In this document: one piece after another, positions 3,989 to 64,000 of the stretch
How the letters are laid out: each line of letters starts with the position of its first letter
How positions within the stretch are numbered: position 1 is the stretch's first letter
Source of the DNA: an uncultured Erythrobacter sp.
Lineage (GTDB): Bacteria > Pseudomonadota > Alphaproteobacteria > Sphingomonadales > Sphingomonadaceae
Direction: 5' to 3'
NCBI GenBank assembly: GCA_913055155.1
Contig: CAJXJR010000015.1
Location: 1 to 64,000, forward strand
Length of the DNA: 64,000 nt
Made by a program: the position numbers and the translations under genes
Notes under the pieces: generated by a model
What the model was told of the DNA's origin: nothing
What the model saw: the letters and a program-made list of their open reading frames with translations, nothing else
The model's database searches: none

Positions 3989-4039
3989 GGCAAGCCTTTC
4001 GAAACAGCAGCGGTCGTCCTTTGCTGCTAGGGCATCAAA

Positions 4040-4076
4040 CTGACAAGAAGCTGGCAAACTGACAAGTTGTTGTCAG
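4040..4076. promoter_or_regulatory. repeat cluster, likely response-regulator operator
   Basis: Between the divergent regulator (start 3988) and efflux operon (start 4100) lie CTGACAA at 4040-4046, CTGGCAA at 4051-4057, CTGACAA at 4059-4065, and the inverted copy TTGTCAG at 4070-4076. The first two copies are 11 bases apart, the helical spacing used by OmpR-type dimers on direct repeats. The last two form a perfect 7-base inverted repeat with a 4-base loop. Location and spacing suggest the binding site of the adjacent regulator. Confidence 0.5.
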
Positions 4077-4099
4077 CTTGGACAGGCATTTGCCGCACC

Positions 4100-8100: not shown

Positions 8101-8293
8101 CGGCCTCGTTCCGCTGCTGTTCGCCAGCGGGCCGGGCTCGGAAATCCAGAAGCCGCTCGCCATCGTGGTGGTTGGCGGGCTGGTATCCGCCACGCTGCTG
8201 ACGCTGGTGCTGCTGCCGATCCTTTACGAACGCTTTGGCGAGAGCAAAGGCGAACACGAAGAAGAGCACATGGGCGAAGGAGAACCGGCATGA
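5189..8293 (+). CDS. heavy-metal efflux RND transporter (CzcA/CusA type)
   Basis: Proton-driven inner-membrane pump of 1034 aa, the usual HME-RND length, exporting divalent or monovalent heavy metals. Seen: N-terminal helix followed by NRLPIDAFPDIS, two large periplasmic domains and two sets of transmembrane helices. The TM4 motif reads AVGILVDGAVVVVEN: it keeps the Asp and Glu of CzcA (DGA...EN) but has Ala where CzcA has the first Asp, as CusA does, so Zn/Co/Cd versus Cu/Ag cannot be decided. The C-terminal tail is rich in His and Glu (EHEEEHMGEGE). It overlaps the channel gene by 4 bases (ATGA). Confidence 0.9.
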   Translation: MLRSLIEKALSLRLAVIALALILAGIGAWSFNRLPIDAFPDISSTQVKIILRAPGMTPEEVESRVITPIEMEMLGIPDQSVLRSVAKYAIADITIDFQDGTDIYWARQQVSERLNAVMADLPSTVEGGMAPISTPLSDMYMFTLEGPQDLAEKRRVLDWIIRPALRTVPGVADVNALGGYVETFEVAPDNSALTAAGLSTADIAAAIDSGNRNDGAGRLTTGEEALIVRSTGAIQTLDDLSNTVLRSGNGGVVRLGDVAEVRTGSLTRYGAVTKDGTGEAVQGLVIGLRGADAAQVVSGVEARLAEIAPSLPEGMAVNVFYDRSDLIERAVGTVEDALLEATVLVVILLLLFLGDFRASVIVALALPMAALLTFIFMRSIGLTANLMSLGGLAIAVGILVDGAVVVVENVVERLSDPKHAHGGKARNILIASAEVAKPVASGLAIIAIVFLPLLTLEGLEGKLFSPVALTIVLALVSALLLSLTLIPVIAFYLLKVKEGHHEPWLMRKISPRYHGLLNGAFARKKLVYIVAGVSLLLTGVAYSVTGKTFLPIMDEGSVVMQLAKLPSVSLEHSVEGDLAIERAIMAEVPEVEAIIARVGSDEIGLDPMGLNESDAFLQLAPRDEWRVPDKDWLVDQIRQVTARFPGIEPSFTQPIDMRTSEMLTGARGDLAIKLFGPDLDELSRLSGEIQARLETIEGTSEAMTVANDTVDYMQIDIDRVAAGRLGMPVTELQDMMRAQVEGMHAGVVAEGNRRIPIVVRGEGRSADTPQAFADQLYQAPSGQLVRASDVADVSLVEGPVKLEHENGSRFALVQAFVTGRDLVGYVEEARADIAQNVELPAGYRLEWGGQFENQQRASARLGIVLPISVLLIFAILYFTLGSLRASLLILLNIPFAMVGGMIALAVSGEYLSVPASVGFIALMGIAVLNGLVMVSYFRQLRSEGVPLHQAVRQGAERRLRPVLMTASIAAFGLVPLLFASGPGSEIQKPLAIVVVGGLVSATLLTLVLLPILYERFGESKGEHEEEHMGEGEPA

Positions 8294-9513
8294 AGCGCCT
8301 TGCCCTGATCCTGCCGCTGCTTGCGCTGGCTGCTCCGCTGGCCGCCGAACCCGGATTGCCCAACGAAGAGCAGGTTTCCATCGCGCTGGATGCCTATCCT
8401 GCCGTCGAAGCCGCGCAACAGCGGGTCAGCGCCGCCCGGTCTTCCGCCCGCGCACGCGCCGCCAGCCCGCACGATTTCACCGTGACGGGCAGCTACACCC
8501 GCCGCTCCATCGATTTCGAAGGCGATTTCGACGAGTTCGATGCCGAACTGATGCGCGGCGTGCGCTTGCCCGGCAAGGCACGGCTGGATCGCGAGATCGG
8601 CACCCACCTGGTCGATGCGGCGGAAAACATGGCCGAAGATACGCGCCACCAGGCCGCCCTGGTGCTGGCGCAGCACTGGTGGGACTGGCTGGCCGCCTCT
8701 GCCGCCGCGCAGGTCGATCAGCAAGCCGTCGACAATTACCAGCGGGCGCTGGCCGCCGTGCGGCGCCGCGTGGAACTGGGCGATGCAGCCCCGCTGGATG
8801 CCGACCAGGCCGAGGCCGCGCTGGGCGCTGCCCGCGTGCGTGCCGCGCAGTCGCTGGGCGAGGCAAACCTTGCCCGCACCCGGCTTGCCACGCACTTCCC
8901 CGCCCTCGCCCTGCCCGCGCAGGCGCCGGAGATTCCCGTGCCCGAAGTGGTGACCGGCGAACTGGAGCGCCTTTCCGGGCTGGTGGTGATGAACAGCCAC
9001 GAGATCGCCGCTGCCGAAGCGCAATCGCGCGCGGTCGATGCCGCCGCCCAGCGCGCCCGACTGGACCGGGTGGCAGACCCATCCATCGGCGTGCGCGTAT
9101 TCTCCGAACGCGGCGGCGCGGAAACCGGCGCGGGCCTGGTCTTCTCCATGCCTTTTGGCGGCAGCCGTCGCGGCGCGCTGGCAGACCAGGCCACGGCCGA
9201 AGCCGATGCCGCCATGGCCGATGCCCGCATGGCGCGCTTTGCCGTGCAGGAAACCTCCGCCGCCGATCTGGCGCAGGCACAGTTCCGCATCGAATCGTGG
9301 CAACGCGCCCGCGAAGGCCTGCGCGCGCAGATGGCGGTGCTCACTCGCATGCGCCGGGGGCACGAACTGGGCGAGATCGACCTGGCCGACCTTCTGCTGG
9401 CCGAACGCATGACGCACGAAGCCTTCAGCCTGGAAGTGAGCGCGCGTGCCGAAGCCCAGCGGGCGATCACCCAGCTGCGCATCGACAGCCACCAGCTCTG
9501 GCTGGCGGACTGA
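8290..9513 (+). CDS. TolC-family outer-membrane efflux channel (CzcC type)
   Basis: Outer-membrane factor of 407 aa with a cleavable signal peptide (MKRLALILPLLALAAPLAAE) and two alanine-rich coiled-coil repeats typical of OEP domains, including PSIGVRVFSERGG in the second half. Its ATG overlaps the stop of the pump gene, and a GGAGAA ribosome site lies just upstream. It completes an adaptor-pump-channel operon; in the classical czc operon the channel gene comes first, so the order here is BAC. It converges with a sulfotransferase gene 4 bases beyond. Confidence 0.85.
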   Translation: MKRLALILPLLALAAPLAAEPGLPNEEQVSIALDAYPAVEAAQQRVSAARSSARARAASPHDFTVTGSYTRRSIDFEGDFDEFDAELMRGVRLPGKARLDREIGTHLVDAAENMAEDTRHQAALVLAQHWWDWLAASAAAQVDQQAVDNYQRALAAVRRRVELGDAAPLDADQAEAALGAARVRAAQSLGEANLARTRLATHFPALALPAQAPEIPVPEVVTGELERLSGLVVMNSHEIAAAEAQSRAVDAAAQRARLDRVADPSIGVRVFSERGGAETGAGLVFSMPFGGSRRGALADQATAEADAAMADARMARFAVQETSAADLAQAQFRIESWQRAREGLRAQMAVLTRMRRGHELGEIDLADLLLAERMTHEAFSLEVSARAEAQRAITQLRIDSHQLWLAD

Positions 9514-9517
9514 TCGC

Positions 9518-10819
9518 CTAGCGCGCCGCCACGCGGCCTTCCCGCGCGACGTCGAAGCTGCGCGCATAGTCGCCCAGCTGGTCCATCACCTGGCCTTCGG
9601 TCAGGCCGAATTCGGCCAGGCTGTAGCGATGCGGGCGGCGCTTCAGCCCCTCTGCCGCACGGTGGCAGGCCTCCATGGCAGGCCATGCGGGTTCGATTTC
9701 CAGGCCCAGGAAGCGATAGATCCGCTCCATCGCGCCGCGCCAGTCGGCATCCACGTCTTCGTAATGCACGTCGATCATCCGCTCAGGCGCGATGGCCTTG
9801 CGCCCTGCCTGCATCCGCTCCACCTGCAGCCGCGTCTTGCGCAGCCATTCGCGGCCAACCTGCCGCGGGTCGGCATGGTCGGAATAGATGCAGGTCTGGT
9901 TCCACGCCAGCGAGGCGGAGCTGGCCACCACCCTCAAGGGATCGCGGTGGGTGAAGACGAAGCGGGCATCGGGAAAGACCTTCAGCAAGGCATCGAGATC
10001 GAGCATGTGTTGCGGCGTTTTCAGCACCCACGGTTTCAGCGAGCTTTCCCGCTGCGACCAGCCGACCAGTCGCAACAGCCGCGCCATCTGGCGGTAGGCA
10101 GGCGTCGCATCCTGCCCTTCGCACCAACGCCCGTAGGTGGGCACGTGCCACTGCGCCTCGTGTTTCATGCCCCAGAAGCTGTTGACCAGCAGGCCCAGCT
10201 CTTCCTCAGGCTGCATCGGACCCGTAGGATGAATCGACAGCGTGCGCGGATTGGCCCATTCCGCTACCTTGCGCGCGCGGCGCGCTATCGTGATGCGATG
10301 GTCGTACCCGCCGTGGGTAAAACCGGGATGGGGCACCGGGCAGATCGTCTCGAAACTGCGCATGTGGGCAAAGCGCCGGTCTGCCGCCAGCAAGCGGTGC
10401 AGCCGCGTGGTGCCCGATCGCATCGGGCCGACCACGAAGACCGGTGCACGCAGCGGGCGTGCAAGGATTTCCGGATGGCGGGCGAACCATTGCTGCGCCC
10501 ACAAGCGGTCGACCAGCACCTTCTCGCATTGCTTCATGGCCACCCAGGCACCGGCCTCGTGCAGCTGCGCCTCGCCATCCAGGGCCTGCAACAGCATTGC
10601 CAGCGGCTGTTCGAACCACGAATCGCCAAAATCGTCGCACCCGGCACGCTCCGCCGCGCGCCGCATGATCGTCGCCTTGTCGCAGGTGGGGCGCGCCACC
10701 AGCCCGCCAGCCATGGCCAGGCGCGCCACCAGCTGGACTGCATCGACGAAACGGGTCCGCCGCGGAGGATCGATAATGGTCTGGTCCAGCAAATCGGGCC
10801 CCCGCTGCGTCCGGTGCAT
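9518..10819 (-). CDS. sulfotransferase family protein
   Basis: Predicted PAPS-dependent sulfotransferase, 433 aa. Seen: the 5'-phosphosulfate loop VGPMRSGTTRLHRLL in the middle of the protein, a 3'-phosphate site around FTHRDPLRVVASS, and YEDVDADW towards the C-terminus. The acceptor substrate is unknown. The reading frame stays open for hundreds of codons upstream across serS and surE on the other strand, but that part is shadow; the ATG at 10819 is chosen because homologous sequence begins there and it stops short of the divergent serS. A second, unrelated-architecture sulfotransferase lies at 40.6-42.6 kb. Confidence 0.75.
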   Translation of the reverse strand: MHRTQRGPDLLDQTIIDPPRRTRFVDAVQLVARLAMAGGLVARPTCDKATIMRRAAERAGCDDFGDSWFEQPLAMLLQALDGEAQLHEAGAWVAMKQCEKVLVDRLWAQQWFARHPEILARPLRAPVFVVGPMRSGTTRLHRLLAADRRFAHMRSFETICPVPHPGFTHGGYDHRITIARRARKVAEWANPRTLSIHPTGPMQPEEELGLLVNSFWGMKHEAQWHVPTYGRWCEGQDATPAYRQMARLLRLVGWSQRESSLKPWVLKTPQHMLDLDALLKVFPDARFVFTHRDPLRVVASSASLAWNQTCIYSDHADPRQVGREWLRKTRLQVERMQAGRKAIAPERMIDVHYEDVDADWRGAMERIYRFLGLEIEPAWPAMEACHRAAEGLKRRPHRYSLAEFGLTEGQVMDQLGDYARSFDVAREGRVAAR

Positions 10820-53451: not shown

Positions 53452-53531
53452 GCGAATTCTCCTCTTCCGAAACTCTGCCGCCCCCTAGCGCGCGAACTTT
53501 TTTGCGCCAATGGCACATTTGGTGTTGCCAC

Positions 53532-53546
53532 TGAAAATCATTCTCA
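53532..53546. promoter_or_regulatory. Fur box upstream of the siderophore receptor
   Basis: TGAAAATCATTCTCA differs at one position from the perfect inverted heptamer TGAGAATCATTCTCA of classical Fur sites. It lies about 53 bases before the apparent receptor start, so iron-dependent repression by Fur is likely. Confidence 0.7.
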
Positions 53547-53598
53547 ATACAGGTGCTCTTGCAAATCAATTGCAATAAGAATCGTAGGGGAAGACACT

Positions 53599-55692
53599 AT
53601 CCGTACCGCAACCGCCCGCCTTGCACTGCTCGCAAGCGCCGCCACCATCGCTCCAACGCCTGCCCTGGCCAATGCCGCCGCGGAGGCGCAGCGCGATTAC
53701 CTGCCCAGCAACATCATCGTCACCGGGCAGCGCGAAACCTACGTCGGCGATGACGGCAGCACCGGCACCAAGACGCCCACGCCCATCATCGACGTGCCGC
53801 AGGCCGTCACCGTCATCACCGCAGACCAGCTGGAAGACCAGGGCGTCACCAGCCTGAACGATGCCCTGCGATTCGTGCCCGGCGTCAGCCTGGAAACGGG
53901 CGAAGGCCACCGTGACGAGGTGTTCATTCGCGGGCAGGAAACCACGGCGGATTTCTACCTCGACGGGCTGCGCGACGACGCGCAGTACTATCGTCCGCTC
54001 TACAACGTGGAGCGCGTGGAAGTGCTGAAAGGCGCCAACGCACTGATCTTCGGCCGCGGCGCAGGCGGCGGCGCGATCAACCGCGTATCCAAGGTGGCCG
54101 AATTGGGCATGCCCGAATACGCCCTTGGCGCGCAGGTCGACAGCTTCGGCGCCTTTGCCCTGAATGCCGATGCCAACCTGCCCGTGGGCGACGCCGTCGC
54201 TGTCCGCCTGAACGGCACTTACGAGGAATTCGACAATCACCGCGATGTCTACGACGGTCGCTTCATCGGCTTTTCGCCCACGCTCACCGCGCAGCTTGGC
54301 CCCGATACCCGTCTCTACGCCTGGTACACCTATGACGATGACGAGCGCGTGGTCGATCGCGGCCTGCCCTCGCTGAACGGCGGCCCGCTGCGGGGTTATG
54401 ACGAAACCTTCTTCGGCGATGCCGACTACAATTTCAGCGATGTCGAAGTGCATATCGCCCGCACCCGGCTGGAGCACGATTTCAGCGAGGCCTGGAGCCT
54501 CAATGCCAGCCTGCTCTATGCCGACTACGACAAGTTCTATTCCAACATCGTGCCCGGTGGCGGCACCACCGCGACTACGGTGACCCTGTCGGGCTATGAA
54601 AGCGGCACCGATCGCCAGAACCTGATCGGGCAGGTCAACCTTGTCGGCCAGTTCGACACCGGGTCGCTGGGCCACACGCTGCTGCTGGGCGCCGAGGTCG
54701 GTTCGCAGGATACCGATGCCGTGCGCAACCGCGCACTGTTCAATAACGGTGCGGACACCAGCGTCACCGTGGCGCTGGCAGACACCATCACCGTGCCCGC
54801 CTTCACCCTGGCGCCGCAGCGCGCCAGCATGTCGGAGCTGTCGACCCTGTCGTTCTACGCACAGGAACAGCTGGATATCGGCATGCTGCAGCTGGTGGCG
54901 GGCGTGCGCTTCGACCGCTTCGACCTTGAAAGCACCGACCTGATTTCGGGCTTCGACGGCGCGCGGGTGGACGAACGCTGGAGCCCGCGCTTCGGCGCGA
55001 TCCTCAAGCCGCAGGATAACCTGTCGATCTACGCCAGCTATGCCGAAAGCTTCCTGCCGCAATCGGGCAACCAGTTCACCGTGCTCAGCCAGCAGTCTGG
55101 ATCGCTCGATCCGGAAACCTTCGAGAACATCGAGCTGGGCGTGAAATATGCCCCGCATCCCGAACTGCTGCTGACGGCGGCAGTGTTCCGCCTGACCCGG
55201 TCCAACACCACGGCACCCGATCCGGCCAACACCGGGCTGGTGGTACTGGCCGGCGAAAGCGAAGTCGAAGGCTTCGAACTGGGGCTGGTGGGCGAGCCGG
55301 TCGACGGCCTTTCTCTGAGCCTGGGCTATGCCTATCTCGATGGCGAGATCACCTCCACCACCACATCGGCAGCCGCCGGCACGGTGTTGCAGCAGGTGCC
55401 AGAGCACCAGATCACCGCTTGGGCGCGTTACGACGTTACCGACAGGCTGGGCTTCGGCGCCGGGCTTACCCACCTGTCGGAGCAGTTTGCCTCGCTCAGC
55501 AACAACGTGGTGATGCCCGCCTACACGCGGGTGGATGCAGCGGTATTCTTCGAAGCGACAGAGACGCTGTCACTGCAACTGAATGTCGAGAACCTGTTCG
55601 GCGAGGAATACTATCCCAGCGCCCACGGCGACAACAACATCCAGCCCGGCGCTCCGCTGAGCGCCAGCTTCGGTGCGAGGTTGGTGTTCTGA
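53599..55692 (+). CDS. TonB-dependent siderophore receptor, non-canonical start
   Basis: Outer-membrane ferric-siderophore importer of about 697 aa. Seen: signal-like start (RTATARLALLASAATI, cleavage after PALA), PIIDVPQAVTVITADQLEDQ, plug motifs EVFIRGQETTADFYLDGLRDDAQYY and VEVLKGANALIFGRGAGGGAINR, and a barrel ending ASFGARLVF. No ATG, GTG or TTG lies in frame between 53452 and the signal peptide. The codon 5 bases after an AGGGGAAG ribosome site is ATC at 53599, where ATG would be expected. A Fur box at 53532 supports an iron-uptake role. The coordinate given assumes ATC is the start. Confidence 0.8.
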   Translation: MRTATARLALLASAATIAPTPALANAAAEAQRDYLPSNIIVTGQRETYVGDDGSTGTKTPTPIIDVPQAVTVITADQLEDQGVTSLNDALRFVPGVSLETGEGHRDEVFIRGQETTADFYLDGLRDDAQYYRPLYNVERVEVLKGANALIFGRGAGGGAINRVSKVAELGMPEYALGAQVDSFGAFALNADANLPVGDAVAVRLNGTYEEFDNHRDVYDGRFIGFSPTLTAQLGPDTRLYAWYTYDDDERVVDRGLPSLNGGPLRGYDETFFGDADYNFSDVEVHIARTRLEHDFSEAWSLNASLLYADYDKFYSNIVPGGGTTATTVTLSGYESGTDRQNLIGQVNLVGQFDTGSLGHTLLLGAEVGSQDTDAVRNRALFNNGADTSVTVALADTITVPAFTLAPQRASMSELSTLSFYAQEQLDIGMLQLVAGVRFDRFDLESTDLISGFDGARVDERWSPRFGAILKPQDNLSIYASYAESFLPQSGNQFTVLSQQSGSLDPETFENIELGVKYAPHPELLLTAAVFRLTRSNTTAPDPANTGLVVLAGESEVEGFELGLVGEPVDGLSLSLGYAYLDGEITSTTTSAAAGTVLQQVPEHQITAWARYDVTDRLGFGAGLTHLSEQFASLSNNVVMPAYTRVDAAVFFEATETLSLQLNVENLFGEEYYPSAHGDNNIQPGAPLSASFGARLVF

Positions 55693-55713: not shown

Positions 55714-56280
55714 CTAATCGGAACCCAAGTCGTCCGGGCTGGCATCCTCCACGCGCATACCCGGAACGGCGCGCGCCGCGTCTGCAGGGTCTATACCCGG
55801 TGCAGGCGCGGCGCTTATCGTTTCGCGCCTGCGCATTACCCGGCCGGCGCGCTGCACCGCGCGCACAAGCCGGGGATAGACGCCGCAACGGCACAGGTTG
55901 GGGATGGCATCCCTGATCTGCGCCTCGCTCGGATCGGGGTTGCCGCGCAGCAAACCTGCCGCGGCGATGGCGATCCCCGGCGTGCAGAACCCGCACTGGA
56001 TCGCCTGTTCAGCCACCAGCGCCTGCTGCACCGGGTGCGAACGGTCGCGGCTGAGCCCTTCGATCGTGGTGATGAAGCGCCCCTCGGCCTCGCCGATGGT
56101 GACAAGGCAACTGCGCAGCGCCTCGCCATCCACCAGCACCATGCAGGCGCCGCAGTCGCCCGCGCCGCAACCGTACTTGGTGCCAGTAAGATTGGCCGCG
56201 TCGCGCAGCGCGTGCAGCAATGGCGTGTCCGGGTCCATGTCGAAATCGACAGGCCGCTCGTTCACCGTCATTGCCGTCAT
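55714..56280 (-). CDS. (2Fe-2S)-binding small subunit of a molybdenum hydroxylase
   Basis: 188-aa protein with two 2Fe-2S sites. Seen: the plant-type ferredoxin cluster KYGCGAGDCGACMV with a later C (LRSCLVT), and the second, all-helical cluster site QCGFCTPG and NLCRCGVYPR. This is the small subunit type of isoquinoline 1-oxidoreductase or CO dehydrogenase CoxS, which normally works with a molybdopterin large subunit. No large subunit is in the window. The C-terminal 35 residues are an acidic/Ala extension. It is minus-strand beside a class II aldolase. Confidence 0.85.
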   Translation of the reverse strand: MTAMTVNERPVDFDMDPDTPLLHALRDAANLTGTKYGCGAGDCGACMVLVDGEALRSCLVTIGEAEGRFITTIEGLSRDRSHPVQQALVAEQAIQCGFCTPGIAIAAAGLLRGNPDPSEAQIRDAIPNLCRCGVYPRLVRAVQRAGRVMRRRETISAAPAPGIDPADAARAVPGMRVEDASPDDLGSD

Positions 56281-56294
56281 GCGTCAGGAGCCTG

Positions 56295-57053
56295 TCAATT
56301 GCGCCAGCTGGGATCGATGGAATCGATCTTGCGCGTCCAGGCCTGGAAGTCCAGCTTGCCGAAGTCGTCCGTCAACTGCTTGTCGCGGTCGCGCTGGTGC
56401 TGCTCGATCACTTGCGGAGGCACGATGATCGGCTTGCCCAGGCTGGCAGTCTTCACCTGCACTTCGCACGCGCGCTGGAGCATGTAGTAGAGCAGGAACA
56501 TCTCGTAGATGGTCCGCCCCATCACCACCGGCCCGTGGTTCTTCAGCATCAGGATCTGGTGGTTGCCCGCGTTCTTCACCAGCCGTTCGCCCTCTTCGCT
56601 GCGCACGGTGATGCCTTCGAAGTCGTGATAGCCGATCGCGCCTTCGAAGAAACAGGAATAGAAATTGCTCGGCTCGAGCCCGCCTTCGGTGGCGCATACC
56701 GCCATGGTATCGGGCGTATGCGTGTGGACGATGGCATGGGCGTGCGGCAGGTTCTTGTGGAATACGCTGTGCTGGGTGAAACCGGCCAGGTTCACGGGGT
56801 GCGGATTGTCGCCCACCTTCTGCCCGTTCTCGTCGATCTTGACGAGGTTGGAAGCGGTCACTTCCTCCCACAGCAACCCGTAGGGATTTATCAGGAAGTG
56901 GTTTTCCGTGCCCGGCACCCGCAAAGTGATGTGGTTGTAGATGGATTCGCACCAGCCAAGGTGGGCGAAGATGCGATAGGCGGCCGCCAGGTCCAGCCGC
57001 GCCTGCCATTCCTCCGGGCTGCAATCGACATTGTCATTAACTTGCGTGGCCAT
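56295..57053 (-). CDS. class II aldolase/adducin family protein
   Basis: Zinc-dependent aldolase or decarboxylase-type enzyme, 252 aa. Seen: GWCESIYNHITLRVPG, the zinc HxH in HAIVHTHTPDTMAV, and LKNHGPVVMGRTIYEM carrying the third histidine. Substrate unknown; such proteins are frequent in aromatic and sugar-acid degradation clusters. The ATG at 57053 has a GGAGAGAA ribosome site. It is divergent from the VOC gene across 120 bases that contain a palindrome. Confidence 0.82.
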   Translation of the reverse strand: MATQVNDNVDCSPEEWQARLDLAAAYRIFAHLGWCESIYNHITLRVPGTENHFLINPYGLLWEEVTASNLVKIDENGQKVGDNPHPVNLAGFTQHSVFHKNLPHAHAIVHTHTPDTMAVCATEGGLEPSNFYSCFFEGAIGYHDFEGITVRSEEGERLVKNAGNHQILMLKNHGPVVMGRTIYEMFLLYYMLQRACEVQVKTASLGKPIIVPPQVIEQHQRDRDKQLTDDFGKLDFQAWTRKIDSIDPSWRN

Positions 57054-57101
57054 GGGTTCTCTCCGTAATGATTTTGCCCGGATCAATAGCGCGACATTGA
57101 C

Positions 57102-57112
57102 TTTGTCACAAA
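57102..57112. promoter_or_regulatory. palindrome in the divergent aldolase/VOC promoter region
   Basis: The perfect 11-base palindrome TTTGTCACAAA lies midway between the two start codons. On the minus strand a -35-like TTGTGA overlaps it, 17 bases ahead of a -10-like TATTGA. A regulator bound here could control both directions. No regulator gene is present in the island. Confidence 0.4.
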
Positions 57113-57173
57113 CACTGGCAAGCACTGCCCGCAAAGGCGCGGCATGAAAAGACCACGCCGGTGGGAGATTCAG

Positions 57174-57719
57174 ATGGCAGATCAGTTGGGCTATGGCCAG
57201 CCCATGGAAGGCGTTGCGCAAACGGCATTCATCGTGCCGGACCTGACCGCTGCCATCCAACACTGGGCCACCAACTGCCGTGCCGGCCCCTTCTACGTGC
57301 TGCCGCACCTGCTGGCGCCGGGCCAGGTCTATCGCGGCGAGGAAAGCCGCGCCGACGTGACGCTGGCCATGGGTTTTGCCGGGCACATGCTTATCGAACT
57401 CATCCAGCCGCTGGATGACCATCCCAGCGTCTACAAGGAGACCAGGGACCTGCGCCGGTTCGGCTTCCACCACCTCGGCATCGCCTGCGCCGATGTCGAC
57501 GCCAGCAGCGCGGATTACCAGCAGCGCGGCTATGCAGAGGCCTATCGCGCCGCCGTGCCGACCGGGGGCGAAGTCGTCTACCTCGATGACGGCAGCGGCC
57601 CGCAGGCCGGATTTCTCGAATTGTTGCCGGTGACCCCGGCGATGGACGAAACCTTCACCCGCTTCTGGGAAGCGAGCCGCGACTGGGATGGCTCGGACCC
57701 CATACGCCCCTTCGGATAG
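57174..57719 (+). CDS. VOC-superfamily (glyoxalase/dioxygenase fold) protein
   Basis: 181-aa protein with paired beta-alpha-beta modules. Seen: GVAQTAFIVPDLTAAIQHW in the first and FHHLGIACADVDASSADY in the second, and FLELLP at the end supplying the usual Glu ligand. His and Glu positions suggest a metal enzyme, but VOC members range from isomerases to dioxygenases. The ATG at 57174 has a GGGAGA ribosome site and is preferred over an in-frame ATG 30 bases upstream. It is the first gene of the plus-strand catabolic run. Confidence 0.75.
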   Translation: MADQLGYGQPMEGVAQTAFIVPDLTAAIQHWATNCRAGPFYVLPHLLAPGQVYRGEESRADVTLAMGFAGHMLIELIQPLDDHPSVYKETRDLRRFGFHHLGIACADVDASSADYQQRGYAEAYRAAVPTGGEVVYLDDGSGPQAGFLELLPVTPAMDETFTRFWEASRDWDGSDPIRPFG

Positions 57720-57733
57720 GATACGAGAACACG

Positions 57734-59029
57734 ATGAGCACTCCTGCAACCGACACCCCGCAGCAGGGCAACTGGGTCACCAACTCGCCTGCCTACCAGA
57801 CTTTGCTGGTGTTCCTGCTGGCGCTGAATTTCGGCATCGTTTTCTTCGACAGGCAGGCGCTCAACGCGCTTATGCCCTTCGTCCAGCCCGAACTTGCGCT
57901 CTCGCAGACGCAGATCGGCCTGCTGGCCAGCGGCCTTTCGTTTACCTGGGCCATTGCCGCGTTCTTCGTCGGTCGCCTGTCCGACTCGATGGGCAAGCGC
58001 AAGATCCTGCTGGTAATCTCCACCGTCGCCTTTTCGCTGTGTTCGTTCCTGTCGGGTATTGCCACCAGTTTCCTGTTCCTGTTCGCCGCGCGCCTGCTGA
58101 TGGGCGCCGCGGAAGGCGGCGTGATGCCGATCAGCCATGCGATGGTGGCGAGCGAGGTCGATCCCAAGCGGCGTGGTCTGGCGCAGGGCGTGGCGCAAAA
58201 CCTGGGCTCCAACCTGCTGGGCAGTTTCCTGGCCCCGGTGGTGCTGGTTTGGTTTGCCCTGCAGTTCAGCTGGCGCGAGGCGTTCTATCTTGCTGCCGTG
58301 CCCGGCCTGCTCAGTGCTGCGATGATCTGGTTCATGCTGCGCGAGCCGCTGATGCCCAAGCGCGAGCCCAAGCCCAAGGTCGCAGGTTCCAATCCCGTCA
58401 CCGATTACATCGCCGAAGTGATCAGCGCGATGAAGGTACGCAACATGTGGATCAGCGTGGTCGTGGGCGTGCTGATGGTCGCGCACTTCGTCACCACTTG
58501 GGCCTTCATGCCGCTCTACCTTACCGAGGTGAAAGGCTACGATCCCGAAACCATGAGCTGGATCATGGGCTCGCTGGGCATCGCGGCCGCGATCTACAGC
58601 TTCACCGTGGCCGGTATTTCGGACGTGATCGGACGCAAGCCGGTGATGGTCGCCCTGCCGCTGCTGGCCGTGGTCGGTCCGTTAGGCGCGATGTTCTACG
58701 AAGGCGGGGCCTTCGGCCTGGCAGCGATCTTCTTCGTCGGCTGGGCGGTGAACGGCGTATTTCCCATCTTCATGGCGACAATCCCGTCAGAGACTTTCAA
58801 GCCCGTCCACCATGCCACCGTACTCGGTCTGGCCATGGGCAGCTGCGAAGTGCTGGGCGGCGTGTTCGGCCCGATTATCGGCGGCGCGCTGAACGATGCC
58901 TTTGGCCTCGACAGCTTCCTGTGGCTGCTGATCGGCCTTTCCGTGGTCAGCGGTATGATCGCCATGGGCCTGAAGGAAACGGCGCCTGCAGCGCTGGCCA
59001 AGAAGGGCCTGACCTACGAACCCGTCTGA
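57734..59029 (+). CDS. MFS transporter
   Basis: 431-aa permease with 12 predicted TM segments and cytoplasmic loop motif VGRLSDSMGKRK between TM2 and TM3. RLLMGAAEGGVMPISHAMVASEVDPKRRG is typical of anion:cation symporter-like MFS proteins that import organic acids or aromatics. It lies 14 bases after the VOC gene and 10 bases before the esterase, so it is likely the uptake system of the island. Confidence 0.85.
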   Translation: MSTPATDTPQQGNWVTNSPAYQTLLVFLLALNFGIVFFDRQALNALMPFVQPELALSQTQIGLLASGLSFTWAIAAFFVGRLSDSMGKRKILLVISTVAFSLCSFLSGIATSFLFLFAARLLMGAAEGGVMPISHAMVASEVDPKRRGLAQGVAQNLGSNLLGSFLAPVVLVWFALQFSWREAFYLAAVPGLLSAAMIWFMLREPLMPKREPKPKVAGSNPVTDYIAEVISAMKVRNMWISVVVGVLMVAHFVTTWAFMPLYLTEVKGYDPETMSWIMGSLGIAAAIYSFTVAGISDVIGRKPVMVALPLLAVVGPLGAMFYEGGAFGLAAIFFVGWAVNGVFPIFMATIPSETFKPVHHATVLGLAMGSCEVLGGVFGPIIGGALNDAFGLDSFLWLLIGLSVVSGMIAMGLKETAPAALAKKGLTYEPV

Positions 59030-59039
59030 GGAGAGCGAA

Positions 59040-59927
59040 ATGTCCGATCCCATCCTCGCCGAACTGATCGCCACCCTGCGCGCGAACGACCTCGATCTCT
59101 CCGACGATCCCGGTCCGCTCCGCGTCGCCTACGAGGAAATGTTCGCCAGCTTCCCGGTGGCGGAGGACCTTGCGATCGAGGACACCGAACTGGGCGGCGT
59201 GCCTTCCGTCAGCGTCAAAACGCCCGGCAGCACCGGCGGCGTGGTGCTGTACTTCCACGGCGGTGGCTACGTGATCGGGTCGGCAAAGGGCTATCGCAGC
59301 CTTGCCGGCGAAGTGGCCCGCGCGGCAGGCATGGATGCGCAGGTGATCGACTATCGCCTGGCGCCCGAACACCCCTTTCCCGCGGCGGTAGACGATGCGG
59401 TTGCCGCTTACCGCGCACTTGTAGCCAGCGGCACGGCACCGGAAAAGATCGCCTTCGCCGGCGATTCCGCCGGTGGCGGGCTGGTGCTCGCGGCCCTGCT
59501 GAAACTGCGCGACGACGGGGACAAACTGCCTGCCGCCGCGCTGCTGATTTCGCCCTGGGCAGACCTCACCTGCACCGCCCCGTCGATCGCGGCCAAGGCA
59601 GAAGAAGACCCCTCGCTTACCATTCAGGGCCTTGAAGCCTGCGCCGCGCATTACCTCGGCGACGGCGACCGCGCCCAGCCGCTGGCCTCGCCTGCAAGGG
59701 CAGACCTGTCCGGCCTGCCGCCGCTGCTGGTGCAGGTCGGCAGTATAGAGATCCTGCTGGACGATGCCCTGGCCGTTGCCGCCAGGGCGGGCGCTGGCGG
59801 CACCATGGTGCGGCTGGAAGTGCATCCCGGCCTGCCCCACGTCTTCCACGCGTTTGCCTTCATGCTGCCGCAAGCCAGGGCCGCACTGGACGAGGCAGGC
59901 ACCTTTCTTGCGAGGTACGCGGCATGA
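59040..59927 (+). CDS. alpha/beta hydrolase (HSL-type esterase)
   Basis: 295-aa esterase of the hormone-sensitive-lipase family. Seen: oxyanion motif FHGGGYVIGS, nucleophile box GDSAGGG, then LVQVGSIEILLDD (Asp) and LPHVFHAF (His). The catalytic triad is complete. Overlap of its stop with the start of a Baeyer-Villiger monooxygenase (ATGA) makes hydrolysis of the ester formed by that enzyme the obvious role. Confidence 0.88.
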   Translation: MSDPILAELIATLRANDLDLSDDPGPLRVAYEEMFASFPVAEDLAIEDTELGGVPSVSVKTPGSTGGVVLYFHGGGYVIGSAKGYRSLAGEVARAAGMDAQVIDYRLAPEHPFPAAVDDAVAAYRALVASGTAPEKIAFAGDSAGGGLVLAALLKLRDDGDKLPAAALLISPWADLTCTAPSIAAKAEEDPSLTIQGLEACAAHYLGDGDRAQPLASPARADLSGLPPLLVQVGSIEILLDDALAVAARAGAGGTMVRLEVHPGLPHVFHAFAFMLPQARAALDEAGTFLARYAA

Positions 59928-61534
59928 GCAAGGCACACACCCTCGACGCGCTGATCGTGGGCGCGGGTTTTTCCGGCCTCTACATGCTGCACAAGCTGCG
60001 GCAGGAGGGCTTCACCGCCCACGTGGTGGAGAAAGCCTCCGGCGTTGGCGGCACCTGGTTCTGGAACCGTTATCCCGGCGCGCGCTGCGACATTCCGTCC
60101 ATCGAATACAGCTACAGCTTCGATCCGGAGCTGGAAGCCGAGTGGCGCTGGACCGAACGCTATGCCGCGCAGCCCGAGATCCTGCGCTATCTCGAACACG
60201 TTGCCGACCGGTTCGACCTCAATCGCGATATTTCCTTCAACACGCTGGTCACCACGGCCCGCTGGGATGAAGAGCGCGGTCGCTGGCTGGTCGAGACCGA
60301 CGGCGGCGACAGCTACGACGTGCAGTTCCTGGTGCTGGCCACCGGCGCGCTGTCGCAGCCCAAGATGCCCGACATTCCCGGCCTGGAAAACTTCGAAGGA
60401 GCCGTGGTGCACTCGGCCACCTGGGACGACAGCGTGGACCTGGAAGGCAAGGCCATCTGCCAGTTCGGCACCGGCTCCAGCGGCATCCAGATCGTGGGCG
60501 AAGTGGCCAAAGTGGCAAGGCAGCTGACCGTGTTCCAGCGCACCCCCAATTTCGCCGTCCCCGCCAGCAACCACCCGCTGCCCGAAGATTACCTCGAAAA
60601 GCTTCTGCCGGACTATCCCGCGCTGCGCGAACGCGCGCGCACTTCGCCGCTCGGTTTCTTCCACGCCGCGTGGGAAGGCAGCGCCAAGGCAGACGATCCC
60701 GCTGCCCGCGAGGAACGGCTGGAGAAGGCATGGAAGGCAGGCACCACCGGCCTGCTGCAAGCTTACGACGACTTGCTGTTCGACGAGGAAAGCAACGCCT
60801 TTGCCTGCGATTTCGCCCGCCGCAAGATTTCCGAGCTGGTGAGCGACCCGGACAAGGTGCGCAAGCTTACCCCGCACGACTATCCGATGGGATCGCGGCG
60901 GCTGTGTACCGAAGTCGGCTTCTTCGAAGCGATCAACCGCGACAACGTGACGCTGGTGGACGTGCGCGAAGAGCCGGTGGAGACGGTGACGGCCCACGCG
61001 GTCGTCACCTCCGCAGGCGAATACCCTGCAGATGTCATCATCCTGGCCACCGGGTTCGATGCCTGTGTCGGCGCGATCAAGGCGATCGACATTCGCGGGC
61101 GCGACGGGCGTTCGATCCGGGAGGAGTGGGACAACGGCCCGCGTGCCTATCTGGGCCTGGCCGTCGAAGGCTTCCCCAACATGTTCACCATCACCGGCCC
61201 CGGCAGCCCATCAGTGCTGTCGAACGTGGTGGTTTCCATCGAACAGCACGTGGAATGGGTGGCGCGGTGCATGGTCGACATGCGCGATGGCGGCAAACAG
61301 GTGATCGAAGCGACGGCAGAGGCCGAGGCGGCATGGATGGACCATGCCAACGAGATCGCGCACCAGACGCTCTTCCCCCGCGCCAACTCGTGGTACCAGG
61401 GGCACACGAAGGACGGGCGGCAGGTGTTCATGCCCTATGTCGGCGGCGTGGGCGCCTATCGCCAGAAGTGCGACGAGGTGGCCGCCAACGGGTATGAAGG
61501 CTTCACGCTAGAGGGTGCTCGTGAAACGGTTTGA
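59924..61534 (+). CDS. Baeyer-Villiger monooxygenase (type I, FAD/NADPH)
   Basis: Flavin monooxygenase inserting oxygen next to a ketone to give an ester or lactone, 536 aa, the usual length. Seen: FAD Rossmann motif GAGFSG at 13-18, GGTWFWNRYPGARCD, the BVMO fingerprint FEGAVVHSATWD at 157-168, NADPH Rossmann motif GTGSSG at 182-187, and LATGFDA in the C-terminal half. The fingerprint (FxGxxxHxxxW) separates it from other flavin monooxygenases. Coupled to the esterase by a 4-base overlap. Substrate unknown. Confidence 0.93.
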   Translation: MSKAHTLDALIVGAGFSGLYMLHKLRQEGFTAHVVEKASGVGGTWFWNRYPGARCDIPSIEYSYSFDPELEAEWRWTERYAAQPEILRYLEHVADRFDLNRDISFNTLVTTARWDEERGRWLVETDGGDSYDVQFLVLATGALSQPKMPDIPGLENFEGAVVHSATWDDSVDLEGKAICQFGTGSSGIQIVGEVAKVARQLTVFQRTPNFAVPASNHPLPEDYLEKLLPDYPALRERARTSPLGFFHAAWEGSAKADDPAAREERLEKAWKAGTTGLLQAYDDLLFDEESNAFACDFARRKISELVSDPDKVRKLTPHDYPMGSRRLCTEVGFFEAINRDNVTLVDVREEPVETVTAHAVVTSAGEYPADVIILATGFDACVGAIKAIDIRGRDGRSIREEWDNGPRAYLGLAVEGFPNMFTITGPGSPSVLSNVVVSIEQHVEWVARCMVDMRDGGKQVIEATAEAEAAWMDHANEIAHQTLFPRANSWYQGHTKDGRQVFMPYVGGVGAYRQKCDEVAANGYEGFTLEGARETV

Positions 61535-61574
61535 GCGCTGGCGGCCAATGCCGACCAACTACCCTGTCGCATTA

Positions 61575-61629
61575 TAACAATCGTTAGGATAGACTGTTAG
61601 TCCAAACGAGATTCGCGGTTTAGCGCGAA
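61575..61629. promoter_or_regulatory. intergenic inverted repeats before the cupin genes
   Basis: The 114 bases between the monooxygenase and the first cupin are locally AT-rich and hold TAAC/GTTA (61575-61586), GACT/AGTC (about 61592-61602), and the perfect TTCGCG/CGCGAA (61612-61617 and 61624-61629). A second promoter or a translational control element for the cupins is plausible. Confidence 0.35.
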
Positions 61630-61648
61630 CCGGTAAGGAGAGAGACAC

Positions 61649-62182
61649 ATGCCAGAGGCACCCACCACCGAACCCTGGGCCGGCACTCCGCCGGTGCCCC
61701 ACGCCCTGCGCCCCGGTGCCAAGCCCGAAGCCTACATGGCCAAGATCGCCGAAGGCGACGAGAAGTACTGGGTCCCCATCGTCGAGGATGTCTATTCCAA
61801 GCCGGTGTGGATCAGCCCCACGCTCAACATGTGGGCCGACGTGCTGATGGCGAAGAAGCCGTGCATCGTTAACCGGCATTACCATCCCAAGCCCATCTGG
61901 GCCTACACCATCAGCGGCAAGTGGGCCTACCTGGAGCACGACTGGACTGCCACCGCGGGCGATTTCATCTTCGAGACTCCGGGCGAAAGCCACACGCTGG
62001 TCGCCTATGAGCACGAAGACCCGATGAAGGTCTTCTTCGTTGTCTCCGGCCCGCTGATGTGGCTGGATGAAGAAGGCAACACCGTCGGCCACTTCGATGT
62101 CTTCGACTACATGAAGATGGCCCGCGACCATTATGACGCGGTCGGCATCGGTGCCGACTATGTCGATACCCTGATCCGCTAA
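61649..62182 (+). CDS. cupin, 2,4'-dihydroxyacetophenone dioxygenase family (copy 1)
   Basis: 177-aa cupin, the same length as characterised 2,4'-dihydroxyacetophenone dioxygenase, a non-haem iron enzyme that cleaves the C-C bond of a hydroxyketone to a carboxylic acid plus formate. Seen: metal ligands H77 and H79 (NRHYHP), E96 (YLEHDW) and H115 (PGESHTLVAY), at nearly the positions known for the enzyme. GGAGAG ribosome site. First of three paralogues; it is the most divergent of them. Confidence 0.82.
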   Translation: MPEAPTTEPWAGTPPVPHALRPGAKPEAYMAKIAEGDEKYWVPIVEDVYSKPVWISPTLNMWADVLMAKKPCIVNRHYHPKPIWAYTISGKWAYLEHDWTATAGDFIFETPGESHTLVAYEHEDPMKVFFVVSGPLMWLDEEGNTVGHFDVFDYMKMARDHYDAVGIGADYVDTLIR

Positions 62183-62194
62183 AGGAGATTACCC

Positions 62195-62731
62195 ATGGCA
62201 ACCATGACTGCACCCCCCAGCGACAAGGCTGAAATCGTCGACGTTCCATATGCCTACCGCGAACTGGTGGACCGCACCTCGCCCGGCGGGCGTTATATCG
62301 ATGCGCAGAGCGATGACGACAGCCCTTGGGTGCCCTTCGGCCCCAACGCGGCGATCAAGCACCTTGCTTTCGACGTGCGCCAGAACCTGTTCTCCAACAT
62401 CCTGTGGATGAAGGGCCCGGGTGTCATCGGCACGCACTTCCATCGCGGCACCATCACCATGGTCTGCCTGGAAGGCAGCGTGCGCTATCTGGAATACGAC
62501 TGGGTGGCATCGCCCGGCGGTCTGATCCTGGAAGTGCCTGGTGAAAGCCACACGCTGGTTACCGAGCATCCCGAAGGCTGCAAGCTGTTCGGCTGGATGC
62601 AGGGCCCGATCGACTTCTACGATGGCGACGCCAATTTCGTGGAAACGGCGGACGTGTTCTGGATGATGAACCACTACGAAACCTACTGCAAAGAGCAGGG
62701 CATCAAGATCAATCCGAAGCTTTACGTCTGA
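62195..62731 (+). CDS. cupin, 2,4'-dihydroxyacetophenone dioxygenase family (copy 2)
   Basis: 178-aa paralogue, 12 bases after copy 1, with an AAAGGAG ribosome site. Ligands: H81 and H83 (THFHRG), E100 (YLEYDW) and H119 (PGESHTLV). The C-terminus NHYETYCKEQGIKINPKLYV is almost identical in pattern to copy 3. It is followed by an intrinsic terminator. Probably a C-C bond-cleaving dioxygenase or a hetero-oligomer partner of the other copies. Confidence 0.82.
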   Translation: MATMTAPPSDKAEIVDVPYAYRELVDRTSPGGRYIDAQSDDDSPWVPFGPNAAIKHLAFDVRQNLFSNILWMKGPGVIGTHFHRGTITMVCLEGSVRYLEYDWVASPGGLILEVPGESHTLVTEHPEGCKLFGWMQGPIDFYDGDANFVETADVFWMMNHYETYCKEQGIKINPKLYV

Positions 62732-62739
62732 TTTTTCAT

Positions 62740-62771
62740 ACCGCTCCGGACCACGCGTCCGGGGCGGTTTT
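62740..62771 (+). terminator. intrinsic terminator between cupin copies 2 and 3
   Basis: An 11-pair stem with one mismatch (ACCGC-T-CCGGAC / GTCCGG-G-GCGGT) and a 5-base loop, followed by TTTTCATTT. It starts 9 bases after the stop of copy 2, so most transcripts would end here and copy 3 would be expressed at a lower level or from its own start. Confidence 0.75.
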
Positions 62772-62792
62772 CATTTGGCTGGAGAGGAAACC

Positions 62793-63350
62793 ATGGCCAC
62801 CCAGGAAAAGCCCAAGCTGGGCGCAAAGACCGCTGCCGAGGCTGGCGAGTTCAAGATCGTCAACGTGCCGGAAACCTACAAGCACGTGATCGACGAATAC
62901 GTGCGCGAAGGCACCTATGTCGGGCAATCCGAAACCGAGAGTCCGTGGGTTCCCTTCGGCGACAATGCCGCCATTCGCCACCTGGCTTTCGACGTGCGCA
63001 ACAACGTCTATGCCAACGTGCTGTGGATCAAGAGCAAGGGCGTGATCGGCACGCACAAGCACCGCGGCATGGTGTGGGCCATCGGCCTGGAAGGCACTTT
63101 CCGCTACCTCGAATACGACTGGGTCTGCGGGCCGGGTGATTTCATCACCGAATTCCCCGGTCACGCGCATACCCTCGTCACCGACGAGCCCGACGGCATG
63201 AAGGCCTTTTTCTGGATGCAGGGCGCCAACGAATTCTACGACGAGGACGGCAACCACGTGGAAACGCTGGATGTCTGGTGGTTCATCAACCACTACGAAA
63301 GCTACTGCAAGGAACAGGGCATCCCGATCAACCGGGAGCTTTATCTGTGA
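62793..63350 (+). CDS. cupin, 2,4'-dihydroxyacetophenone dioxygenase family (copy 3)
   Basis: 185-aa paralogue starting MATQEKPKLG; the ATG at 62793 has a GGAGAGG ribosome site, preferred over a TTG 18 bases upstream. Ligands: H88 and H90 (THKHRG), E107 (YLEYDW) and H126; copies 1 and 2 have PGESH where this has PGHAH, putting an extra histidine near the metal. The C-terminus NHYESYCKEQGIPIN matches copy 2. Its stop overlaps the GTG of the SDR gene. Confidence 0.82.
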   Translation: MATQEKPKLGAKTAAEAGEFKIVNVPETYKHVIDEYVREGTYVGQSETESPWVPFGDNAAIRHLAFDVRNNVYANVLWIKSKGVIGTHKHRGMVWAIGLEGTFRYLEYDWVCGPGDFITEFPGHAHTLVTDEPDGMKAFFWMQGANEFYDEDGNHVETLDVWWFINHYESYCKEQGIPINRELYL

Positions 63351-64000
63351 GCGAACCCAAGACGCTCGACCAGTTCGACCTGACCGGCCGCACCGCGCTG
63401 GTGACCGGCGCCGCCAGCGGTATCGGCCTCGCCTATGCCGAAGCCGTGGCCGAGGCGGGCGCCAAGGTGACCATCACCGATATCGATGCCGAAGGCGCCG
63501 AACGCGAAGCGGCCCGGTTCGTCGAGCAGGGCTATGACGCGCGCTGGGACGTGTGCGACGTATCCGACCTGGAGCAGGTGGCCCGCGCCTTCGACGATCA
63601 CGTGGCGGCCTATGGCGGCTGCGATATCGCCTTCGCCAATGCCGGCCTCGACGTGGGCGACGGGTTCTGGAGCCCGGAAGACAAGCGCAACCCGGCAGGC
63701 CAGATCGATGTCTACCCCAAGGAGAAGTGGGACAAGTCGATCGCCATCAACCTGACCGGCGTGTTCCATACCGTACGCGAGGCGGCGCGGGTGATGAAGG
63801 CGAACGAGGCGAACGGTGGCCGTCGTGGCGGCTCCATCGTCATCACCAGTTCCAACGCGGCAGAGGTGAACGAGGCGATCGTCGGCGTGCCCTACATGGC
63901 GGCCAAGGCGGGGGTGAAGCACTTCATGCGCCATTCCGCCTACGAACTGGCCGCCTATGGAATCCGCGTGAACGCCATCGCACCCGGCCCCTTCGTCACC
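63347..64000 (+). CDS. SDR-family oxidoreductase, truncated by the window end
   Basis: At least 218 aa of an NAD(P)-dependent short-chain dehydrogenase. Seen: coenzyme motif TGAASGIG at 20-27, D-x-D region ITDIDAEG suggesting NAD, FANAGLDVG, catalytic ITSSNA and YMAAK, and IRVNAIAPGP at the end. The active site is intact. The start is a GTG at 63347 that overlaps the stop of cupin copy 3 (GTGA). Likely oxidises an alcohol or reduces a ketone in the island's pathway, but the direction is not known. The C-terminus lies beyond base 64000. Confidence 0.9.
   Translation, partial: MSEPKTLDQFDLTGRTALVTGAASGIGLAYAEAVAEAGAKVTITDIDAEGAEREAARFVEQGYDARWDVCDVSDLEQVARAFDDHVAAYGGCDIAFANAGLDVGDGFWSPEDKRNPAGQIDVYPKEKWDKSIAINLTGVFHTVREAARVMKANEANGGRRGGSIVITSSNAAEVNEAIVGVPYMAAKAGVKHFMRHSAYELAAYGIRVNAIAPGPFVT

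Follow-up and report, generated by a model that had tools for sequence, protein, structure and literature searches.

Two known bacterial strategies for aryl ketones bear on the gene cluster reported here. One is exemplified by the 2,4'-dihydroxyacetophenone dioxygenase (DAD) of Alcaligenes sp. 4HAP (4p9g, 5bpx), for which the roles of the iron-site residues and of the phenol-binding Trp61 and Asp63 have been reported (PMC4219425). The other pairs a Baeyer-Villiger monooxygenase (BVMO) with an esterase, as in Rhodococcus rhodochrous GD02, where AcpA (55% to phenylacetone monooxygenase, PAMO) and the HSL-type AcpB are reported to be encoded by the genes most up-regulated on acetophenone, by more than 4,000-fold (PMC9618137). 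The lignin degrader Comamonas serinivorans SP-35 reportedly has a DAD gene and a BVMO gene in one genome, both assigned by annotation (PMC6307125). In Novosphingobium sp. MBES04, cluster G-II is described as an operon with a DAD-like lead gene; a lignin dimer raises expression of the operon 2.9- to 44.6-fold, and the promoter answers most strongly to GHP and also responds to 2,4'-dihydroxyacetophenone (PMC10866074). How sphingomonads cleave the side chains of aryl ketols from depolymerized lignin is described as partly unexplained (PMC8612281). This report concerns a cluster near the end of a 64,000-nucleotide stretch from an uncultured Erythrobacter sp. (the window; bases 1-64000 of a 98,222-base contig in a 3.1 Mb genome). 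The cluster codes for a VOC-family protein (VOC), an MFS permease (MFS), an HSL-family esterase (EST), a BVMO, three adjacent cupins (cupA, cupB and cupC), a short-chain dehydrogenase/reductase (SDR) and two alcohol dehydrogenases (ADH1 and ADH2), with a class II aldolase-family gene (Aldo) and a [2Fe-2S] subunit gene (Fer2) in divergent orientation. We consider it fairly probable that these genes form a chromosomal operon that acts on the side chains of aromatic ketones and alcohols from lignin or plants: aryl alpha-ketols would be cleaved with O2 to benzoates, and BVMO and EST would provide a side branch. This reading is computed from gene content, order and conservation, from iron-site and pocket residues, and from the presence of pobA and ligAB in the genome.

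A search with cupC found a match in 40 of the 298 genomes of a family-level sample, the source genome included. From 37 of the 39 other matching genomes (G193 and G135 were left out) we took 40 stretches of up to 20 kb; three genomes (G117, G195 and G164) gave two stretches each, and several stretches are cut by contig ends. A GTDB scan with an alignment of cupB and cupC confirmed 198 places, and the best-scoring 80 make up a second set, the named loci, of which 57 span 20 kb or more. Window genes were mapped onto the stretches by tblastn, and a gene was counted at an identity of at least 40% on the expected strand.

In the family stretches the recurring order is Fer2 and Aldo on one strand and, diverging from them, VOC, MFS, cupA, cupB, sometimes cupC, SDR, sometimes ADH1 and a metallo-hydrolase gene, and ADH2, with members variably missing. 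SDR is found in 35/40 family stretches and 76/80 named loci, SDR together with ADH2 in 34/40 and 70/80, and both together with MFS in 29/40 and 60/80. Counted singly, MFS is present in 29/40 and 63/80, VOC in 28/40 and 53/80, and Aldo in 21/40 and 15/80, and Fer2 lies divergently beside the cluster in 22/40 and 16/80. Of the 40 family stretches, 10 have three cupins, 20 have two and 10 have one; among the 80 named loci the numbers are 48, 21 and 11, where the three-cupin figure is biased upward because the loci were picked by likeness to cupB and cupC.

The named loci cover Novosphingobium, Aurantiacibacter, Parvularcula, Marinicaulis and a Paenalcaligenes, and also Halomonas, Chromohalobacter, Modicisalibacter and Marinobacterium. 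A minimal core of cupC, SDR, ADH2 and MFS is found in seven gammaproteobacterial loci (L140, L141, L145, L153, L155, L159 and L160), one of which (L160) has an additional cupB about 4 kb beyond it, and a Marinobacterium locus (L161) has cupC, SDR and ADH2. The preliminary description of this DNA had proposed gene order as a check on its grouping, and the core order does recur across genera and, in its minimal form, across classes. The grouping of these genes goes beyond chance.

The same description spoke of three DAD-like cupins. This holds for cupA, which is 60% identical to the Alcaligenes DAD over 171 residues, and not for cupB and cupC, which are each 27% identical to it. CupA has the DAD residue at 20 of the 22 active-site positions compared, the differences being F43I and V82I. 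To extend the comparison we aligned 281 cupins that were no shorter than 120 residues and had an identity of 40% or more; removal of identical rows left 242, DAD included. The 241 locus cupins (73 cupA, 83 cupB and 85 cupC) were assigned to classes by their best tblastn label, and some lie outside clusters. The iron ligands His76, His78 and His114 are invariant in all 241, as are Tyr93, Glu95 and Glu108. Trp61, Asp63, Phe129, Tyr93 and Glu108 of the DAD substrate site are kept in 73/73 cupA proteins, in which position 43 is I, M or V instead of F and V82 is always replaced by I. CupA is therefore predicted to be a DAD-type dioxygenase for aryl alpha-hydroxyketones.

In cupB and cupC the phenol-binding pair is replaced, with F or Y at position 61 in 168/168 rows and N (167) or T (1) at position 63. 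CupB has G129 and I49 in 83/83 rows, and cupC has Y61 in 85/85, F129 in 84/85 and N135 in 83/85, with N63, N135 and H156 marking its pocket; at 27% identity, this pocket comparison hinges on the alignment. Assignment of cupB and cupC as DAD was rejected because the Trp61/Asp63 pair is absent from all 168 rows. In a tree made by a quick method from 70 of the 242 rows, cupA groups with DAD (support 100), cupB falls on one side of a branch (90), and cupC does likewise (88) except for one distant row. As judged from residues and tree, each of the three tandem cupins represents an old paralogue class with a conserved pocket of its own; this favors three substrates over gene dosage. The distant row is a lone cupC-like gene at 40% identity (L081:10001, the second locus of genome G164), near which other window genes were not found; it may belong to a fourth class of cupins related to DAD.

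CupB and cupC might be two widespread but uncharacterized classes of iron dioxygenases for side-chain cleavage. Together with SDR and ADH2 they would split aryl ketols that are substituted at C-beta, such as Hibbert ketones and arylglycerol-derived ketols, between C-alpha and C-beta, although we place this on the doubtful side. An AlphaFold model of cupC (pLDDT 90.3) has DAD (5bpx) as its best solved match, with a TM score of 0.71 by query and 0.84 by target, followed by two uncharacterized cupins. Acetylacetone dioxygenase (3bal) appears at rank 9, which together with the low identity to DAD and the different pockets would suit another reading, namely that only cupA is a DAD-type dioxygenase and that cupB and cupC cleave beta-diketones, as acetylacetone dioxygenase (Dke1) does, or serve as binding or isomerizing partners. 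We consider this unlikely, given that the six DAD iron-site residues are kept in 168/168 rows and that DAD itself heads the structural matches of cupC. Also, cupC is the sole cupin beside SDR and ADH2 in the minimal clusters of the Halomonas type, where it is thus probably catalytic.

If cupB and cupC do cleave such ketols, they are candidates for the side-chain cut in the catabolism of G-diketone by Novosphingobium aromaticivorans. As described in that study, this cut is left to enzymes not identified, and both models expect vanillin (PMC8612281). DAD chemistry would give vanillate directly and not vanillin, so the two cupins are testable rather than obvious candidates for this step.

Neighboring genes in related clusters point to aromatic side-chain catabolism. 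A Rieske gene is part of the cluster in 35/80 named loci, and a pair of genes for a cytochrome c and a flavoprotein is present in 19/80. In one locus of the Novosphingobium type (L117), these are a Rieske protein with a VanA_C domain, a cbb3-type cytochrome c and a flavoprotein of the VAO/PCMH family, a close relative of nsVAO (9FFK) that scores 1019 bits over 499 residues against it; the Rieske, cytochrome and flavoprotein genes of a related cluster gave no NCBIfam match at 1e-30. A report on nsVAO, an enzyme of Novosphingobium sp., describes slow turnover of vanillyl alcohol (kcat 0.29 per second) and poor activity on eugenol (PMC7617285). In four of six loci examined (L140, L145, L159 and L161; not L155 and L157), an ORF of some 600 residues lies divergently beside cupC, and these ORFs begin alike. 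The Chromohalobacter copy (L159) has the XylR_N 'activator of aromatic catabolism', V4R and sigma-54 activator domains, and its best NCBIfam model is MobR, at a score below the cut-off. The evidence from neighbors combines an XylR_N regulator, a VanA-type Rieske protein and a VAO/PCMH flavocytochrome.

The nsVAO-like gene of L117 (12427-14360) directly follows the cytochrome c gene with a 4-base overlap, as in p-cresol methylhydroxylase, and in 18 further named loci the two genes lie 0 to about 100 bases apart (from tblastn ends). The authors of the nsVAO report state that an endogenous cytochrome as acceptor could not be excluded (PMC7617285), and this gene layout suggests such an acceptor for the nsVAO-like enzyme. 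A search for the vanillyl-alcohol dehydrogenase of Marinicaulis flavus near its cupin cluster found no nsVAO relative in the surrounding 17.8 kb; two are present on contigs 2 and 7 of that genome.

The Erythrobacter genome itself codes for PobA, with a score of 620 bits against an equivalog cut-off of 538.7, and for LigA and LigB, both above their NCBIfam cut-offs; it has five LigB-family matches. A search for intradiol dioxygenases gave no match in this genome; the same search matched 4 of 14 controls. DAD cleaves 2,4'-dihydroxyacetophenone to 4-hydroxybenzoate and formate, and with these genes the organism could make use of 4-hydroxybenzoate that arises in this way. The pobA gene (contig C10, 4807-6039) lies about 320 bases from a likely IS transposase (3780-4487, recognized by eye), and contig C14 has another two genes for dioxygenases of the LigB family, close together and coding for about 420 residues each (5602-6870 and 8261-9520).

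Alcohol oxidation followed by dioxygenolytic cleavage of a ketol is the simplest chemistry that unites the conserved parts of the cluster. Substrates would enter through a neighboring TonB-dependent receptor and the MFS permease, and SDR, ADH1 and ADH2 would oxidize side-chain carbinols to ketones and alpha-ketols. The mononuclear-iron cupins would next break, with O2, the bond that links the carbinol carbon to the carbonyl on the ring, yielding an aryl carboxylic acid and a short acid. CupA would act on ketols that resemble 2,4'-dihydroxyacetophenone, and cupB and cupC on ketols that differ in ring or side-chain substitution. The aryl acid could be passed to PobA and protocatechuate 4,5-dioxygenase (LigAB), both of which are encoded in the genome. 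For this species and a few of its relatives, BVMO and EST might additionally convert ketones that lack an alpha-hydroxyl group to an ester and then to a phenol and an acid (or an acid and an alcohol), as proposed for AcpAB.

Several points weigh against this proposal. No enzyme of the window cluster clearly alpha-hydroxylates a ketone, and Aldo, VOC, Fer2 and the metallo-hydrolase are assigned no step. The VanA-like and VAO-like genes of related clusters are absent from the window's own cluster. Loss of the DAD phenol-binding pair means that the substrate of cupB and cupC may not be a phenolic ketol. A search with the hydroquinone dioxygenase family PF18191 gave no match, yet it also matched 0 of 14 controls and so carries no information on the route from the BVMO product. 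Finally, in MBES04 phenylpropanones are reported to induce the DAD-like gene yet not to serve as an energy source (PMC10866074); this gene (MBENS4_1161) can be compared with cupA, cupB and cupC by description only.

Type I BVMOs carry the signature FxGxxxHxxxW(P/D), flanked by two GxGxxG motifs. The window BVMO has the FEGAVVHSATWD fingerprint at position 157 and GxGxxG motifs at 13 and 182. Its best match in the Protein Data Bank (PDB) is PAMO (1w4x; phmmer E 4.5e-173). The 580 bits for PAMO are followed by 533 bits for a steroid monooxygenase (4aos), and cyclohexanone monooxygenases also score high. These values, along with the loss of the phenol-binding pair in cupB and cupC, would fit a pathway for alicyclic, terpenoid or steroid ketones in which BVMO forms a lactone or ester, the esterase opens it, and cupB and cupC act on non-aromatic ketols. 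We regard such a pathway as very unlikely. CupA keeps Trp61 and Asp63 and differs from DAD at only two of 22 positions, the XylR_N, VanA_C and VAO/PCMH neighbors in related clusters belong to families of aromatic catabolism, and pobA and ligAB are present in the genome. The broader claim of the preliminary description, catabolism of an aryl or cyclic ketone, survives in part. The genes form a catabolic cluster that combines BVMO and esterase with cupins of the DAD type and whose substrates are probably aryl ketones, but a joint route through BVMO and cupins is not borne out.

The BVMO-EST pair is a separate, optional side module and not part of the operon core. BVMO or EST is present in 0/40 family stretches and in 1/80 named loci (Aurantiacibacter odishensis), and BVMO with three cupins as one established pathway was rejected on these counts. 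The idea of one combined pathway is likewise not supported by the loci that carry three cupins without BVMO, 10/40 and 48/80. The proposed order of esterase, BVMO, cupA, cupB, cupC and SDR is conserved in its core, but among the genomes examined the exact order is found only in the window and in one other genome (G313). In the family sample, BVMO matches at 1e-180 occur in 8/296 genomes, the source genome included, with at most four candidates scored per genome. In a sample of 40 genomes of the genus, BVMO has a match at 1e-100 in 13, of which 12 are at least 66% identical, and EST adjoins BVMO in all 12. The pair is inside the cupin operon in four of these genomes (G304, G313, G318 and the source genome, G000), with variants that lack cupA (G304) or carry a Rieske gene in place of cupC (G318). 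It lies outside the operon in the other eight, in five of which it is beside a small MarR-like gene recognized by eye.

CupB is present in 23/40 genus genomes. The cupin cluster occurs in 11 of the 12 genomes that bear the pair versus 12 of the 28 others (Fisher p 0.005, uncorrected for descent and with the source genome counted), and the sole pair-bearing genome without it (G321) is 86% complete. This is a hint of a functional link between the pair and the cupin cluster. The operon BVMOs fall into three clades mixed with free-standing ones, and a single clade is rejected (p-AU 6e-5), whereas the operon esterases form one clade (support 100/99). The histories of the two genes therefore differ (loci L162-L173), and one of them, or both, has been exchanged. 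These trees are read most simply as repeated recruitment of BVMO beside an operon-type esterase, the alternative being swaps in free-standing loci. The pair could instead have come into the operon by chance and act on an unrelated ketone, as its location elsewhere in 8/12 genomes and its absence from 40/40 family stretches and 79/80 named loci might suggest. We find this improbable, because the pair is in the operon in four genomes with BVMOs of three clades and esterases of one, and because of the skewed occurrence of the cupin cluster noted above.

The label "island" in the preliminary description is not borne out by composition, by flanks or by the cluster genes, among which domain and NCBIfam scans revealed no mobility gene. 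The G+C content of 55714-68706 is 0.640, compared with 0.660 for window positions 1-55713 and 0.641 for the whole contig. Flank families were counted if they are also represented next to the cluster on the window contig, where an ArsC-type gene and a lipoyl ligase gene (LplA-B_cat) lie upstream and a PhyR-type regulator gene lies downstream. Such families are shared upstream in 21/40 family stretches, downstream in 11/40, on both sides in 10/40 and on either side in 22/40. In the other 18, the cluster is not at that chromosomal place or contig ends conceal the flanks. The cluster thus holds one chromosomal place in about half of the family sample and does not look like an island; a genomic or catabolic island was rejected on the near-average G+C and the common flanks. 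Well away from the cluster, at about 84-97 kb of the contig (L011 and the end of L010), several genes have a lower third-position G+C (0.54-0.73), and a likely serine recombinase, recognized by eye, is encoded at 90562-92148. This suggests a mobile region near the end of the contig.

The features are collected below. All ten genes named in the preliminary description are present where it placed them, as ORFs with domain matches, and the plus-strand spacing is also as claimed, with overlaps of a few bases and a largest gap of 114 bases (BVMO-cupA). From VOC through cupC the intervals are 14, 10, -4, 114, 12 and 61 bases, where the negative value is the 4-base overlap of the EST and BVMO reading frames, and cupC overlaps SDR. 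On the minus strand 14 bases separate Fer2 from Aldo, and a divergent spacer of 120 bases separates Aldo from VOC. The same-strand run extends past position 64000 with ADH1, the metallo-hydrolase, ADH2 and a MATE pump; gene calls beyond the window were made with a simple codon-position script.

Features of the cluster and its immediate neighbors (positions beyond 64000 are contig coordinates).
Feature	Position	Strand	Basis or remark
TonB-dependent receptor	53503..55692	+	PF00593/PF07715; start arbitrary; probable outer-membrane uptake
Fer2, orphan [2Fe-2S] small subunit, xanthine-dehydrogenase type	55714..56280	-	PF01799, PF00111
Aldo, class II aldolase/adducin family	56295..57053	-	PF00596; NF005451 above cut-off
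VOC (Glyoxalase_4) protein	57174..57719	+	PF13669
MFS permease, probable importer	57734..59029	+	PF07690
EST, HSL-family esterase, accessory module	59040..59927	+	PF07859; HGGG and GDSAG motifs
BVMO, type I, phenylacetone/steroid monooxygenase group, accessory module	59924..61534	+	phmmer, motifs
cupA, DAD-type cupin, predicted aryl alpha-hydroxyketone dioxygenase	61649..62182	+	60% identity to DAD
cupB, DAD-fold cupin, iron site kept, pocket differs	62195..62731	+	residue comparison
cupC, DAD-related cupin, iron site kept, third pocket type	62793..63350	+	residues, AlphaFold model
SDR dehydrogenase	63347..64207 (contig; window ends 64000)	+	PF00106; GTG start picked by inspection
ADH1, Zn-alcohol dehydrogenase	64260-65378 (contig)	+	
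Metallo-hydrolase	65384-66274 (contig)	+	
ADH2, Zn-alcohol dehydrogenase	66281-67282 (contig)	+	
MATE pump	67336-68706 (contig)	+	

At 1e-10, NCBIfam gave no match for cupA, cupB, cupC or VOC. The TonB receptor is beside the cluster on the same strand in 4/40 family stretches and 9/80 named loci, which are close relatives. Fer2 has no adjoining large or FAD subunit, and two MoCoBD_1 matches are present elsewhere in the genome; its position next to Aldo is conserved.

Compared with described systems, the enzyme families of this cluster are ordinary. What appears to be new, as far as could be seen, is their arrangement, in which a core of the DAD type comprises three pocket classes and a BVMO-EST side module is optional. 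Among the titles and abstract openings listed by literature searches of capped length, with subscription journals mostly outside their coverage, none describes a BVMO-cupin operon or a tandem DAD-cupin operon, and the words 'cupin' and 'dihydroxyacetophenone' are absent from the main text of PMC11837543 and PMC12997858 by word search. PMC13101465 and PMC6366072 did not prove relevant to the cluster. The preliminary description had called the combination of oxygen insertion and C-C cleavage with three cupins new. A DAD gene and a BVMO gene have been reported together in one genome, that of C. serinivorans SP-35 (PMC6307125). That genome resembles ours in that both routes are proposed for it, and differs in that no joint operon is described in the available part of the report. 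An acetovanillone cluster of the Hpe/Acv type was rejected, as its kinase, biotin carboxylase and phosphatase are not among the cluster genes scanned, a scan that did not extend to the rest of the genome.

The BVMO-EST pair has its nearest parallel in AcpA (acetophenone monooxygenase) and AcpB (phenyl acetate esterase), likewise a two-gene module of a PAMO-type BVMO adjoining an HSL-type esterase. As described, the GD02 pair feeds phenol to catechol, whereas the pair here sits in a DAD-type operon. The reported 4-hydroxyacetophenone pathway of Pseudomonas fluorescens ACB, with the monooxygenase HAPMO, an esterase and hydroquinone dioxygenase (PMC9618137, PMC6366072), also applies a BVMO and an esterase to an aryl methyl ketone, but the window BVMO is nearest to PAMO in the PDB. 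In 19 named loci, though not in the window cluster, an nsVAO relative is encoded together with a cytochrome c, recalling p-cresol methylhydroxylase. Cluster G-II of MBES04 is likewise a sphingomonad operon led by a DAD-like gene and induced by lignin phenylpropanones, which fits our proposal in a comparison made by description only; it has four genes, three of them called hypothetical.

Like the DAD of strain 4HAP, cupA has the iron site and the phenol-binding Trp/Asp pair in addition to its high identity, and cupB and cupC share the iron site and, in the cupC model, the fold. Unlike that system, up to three cupins with distinct pockets stand here in tandem with SDR, ADH2 and MFS, and cupB and cupC lack the phenol-binding pair. 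The conserved operon, with iron cupins whose distinct pockets are conserved by clade, therefore offers named candidates for the side-chain cut of aryl ketols, and with the occasional graft of BVMO and EST, two known aryl-ketone strategies meet in one operon.

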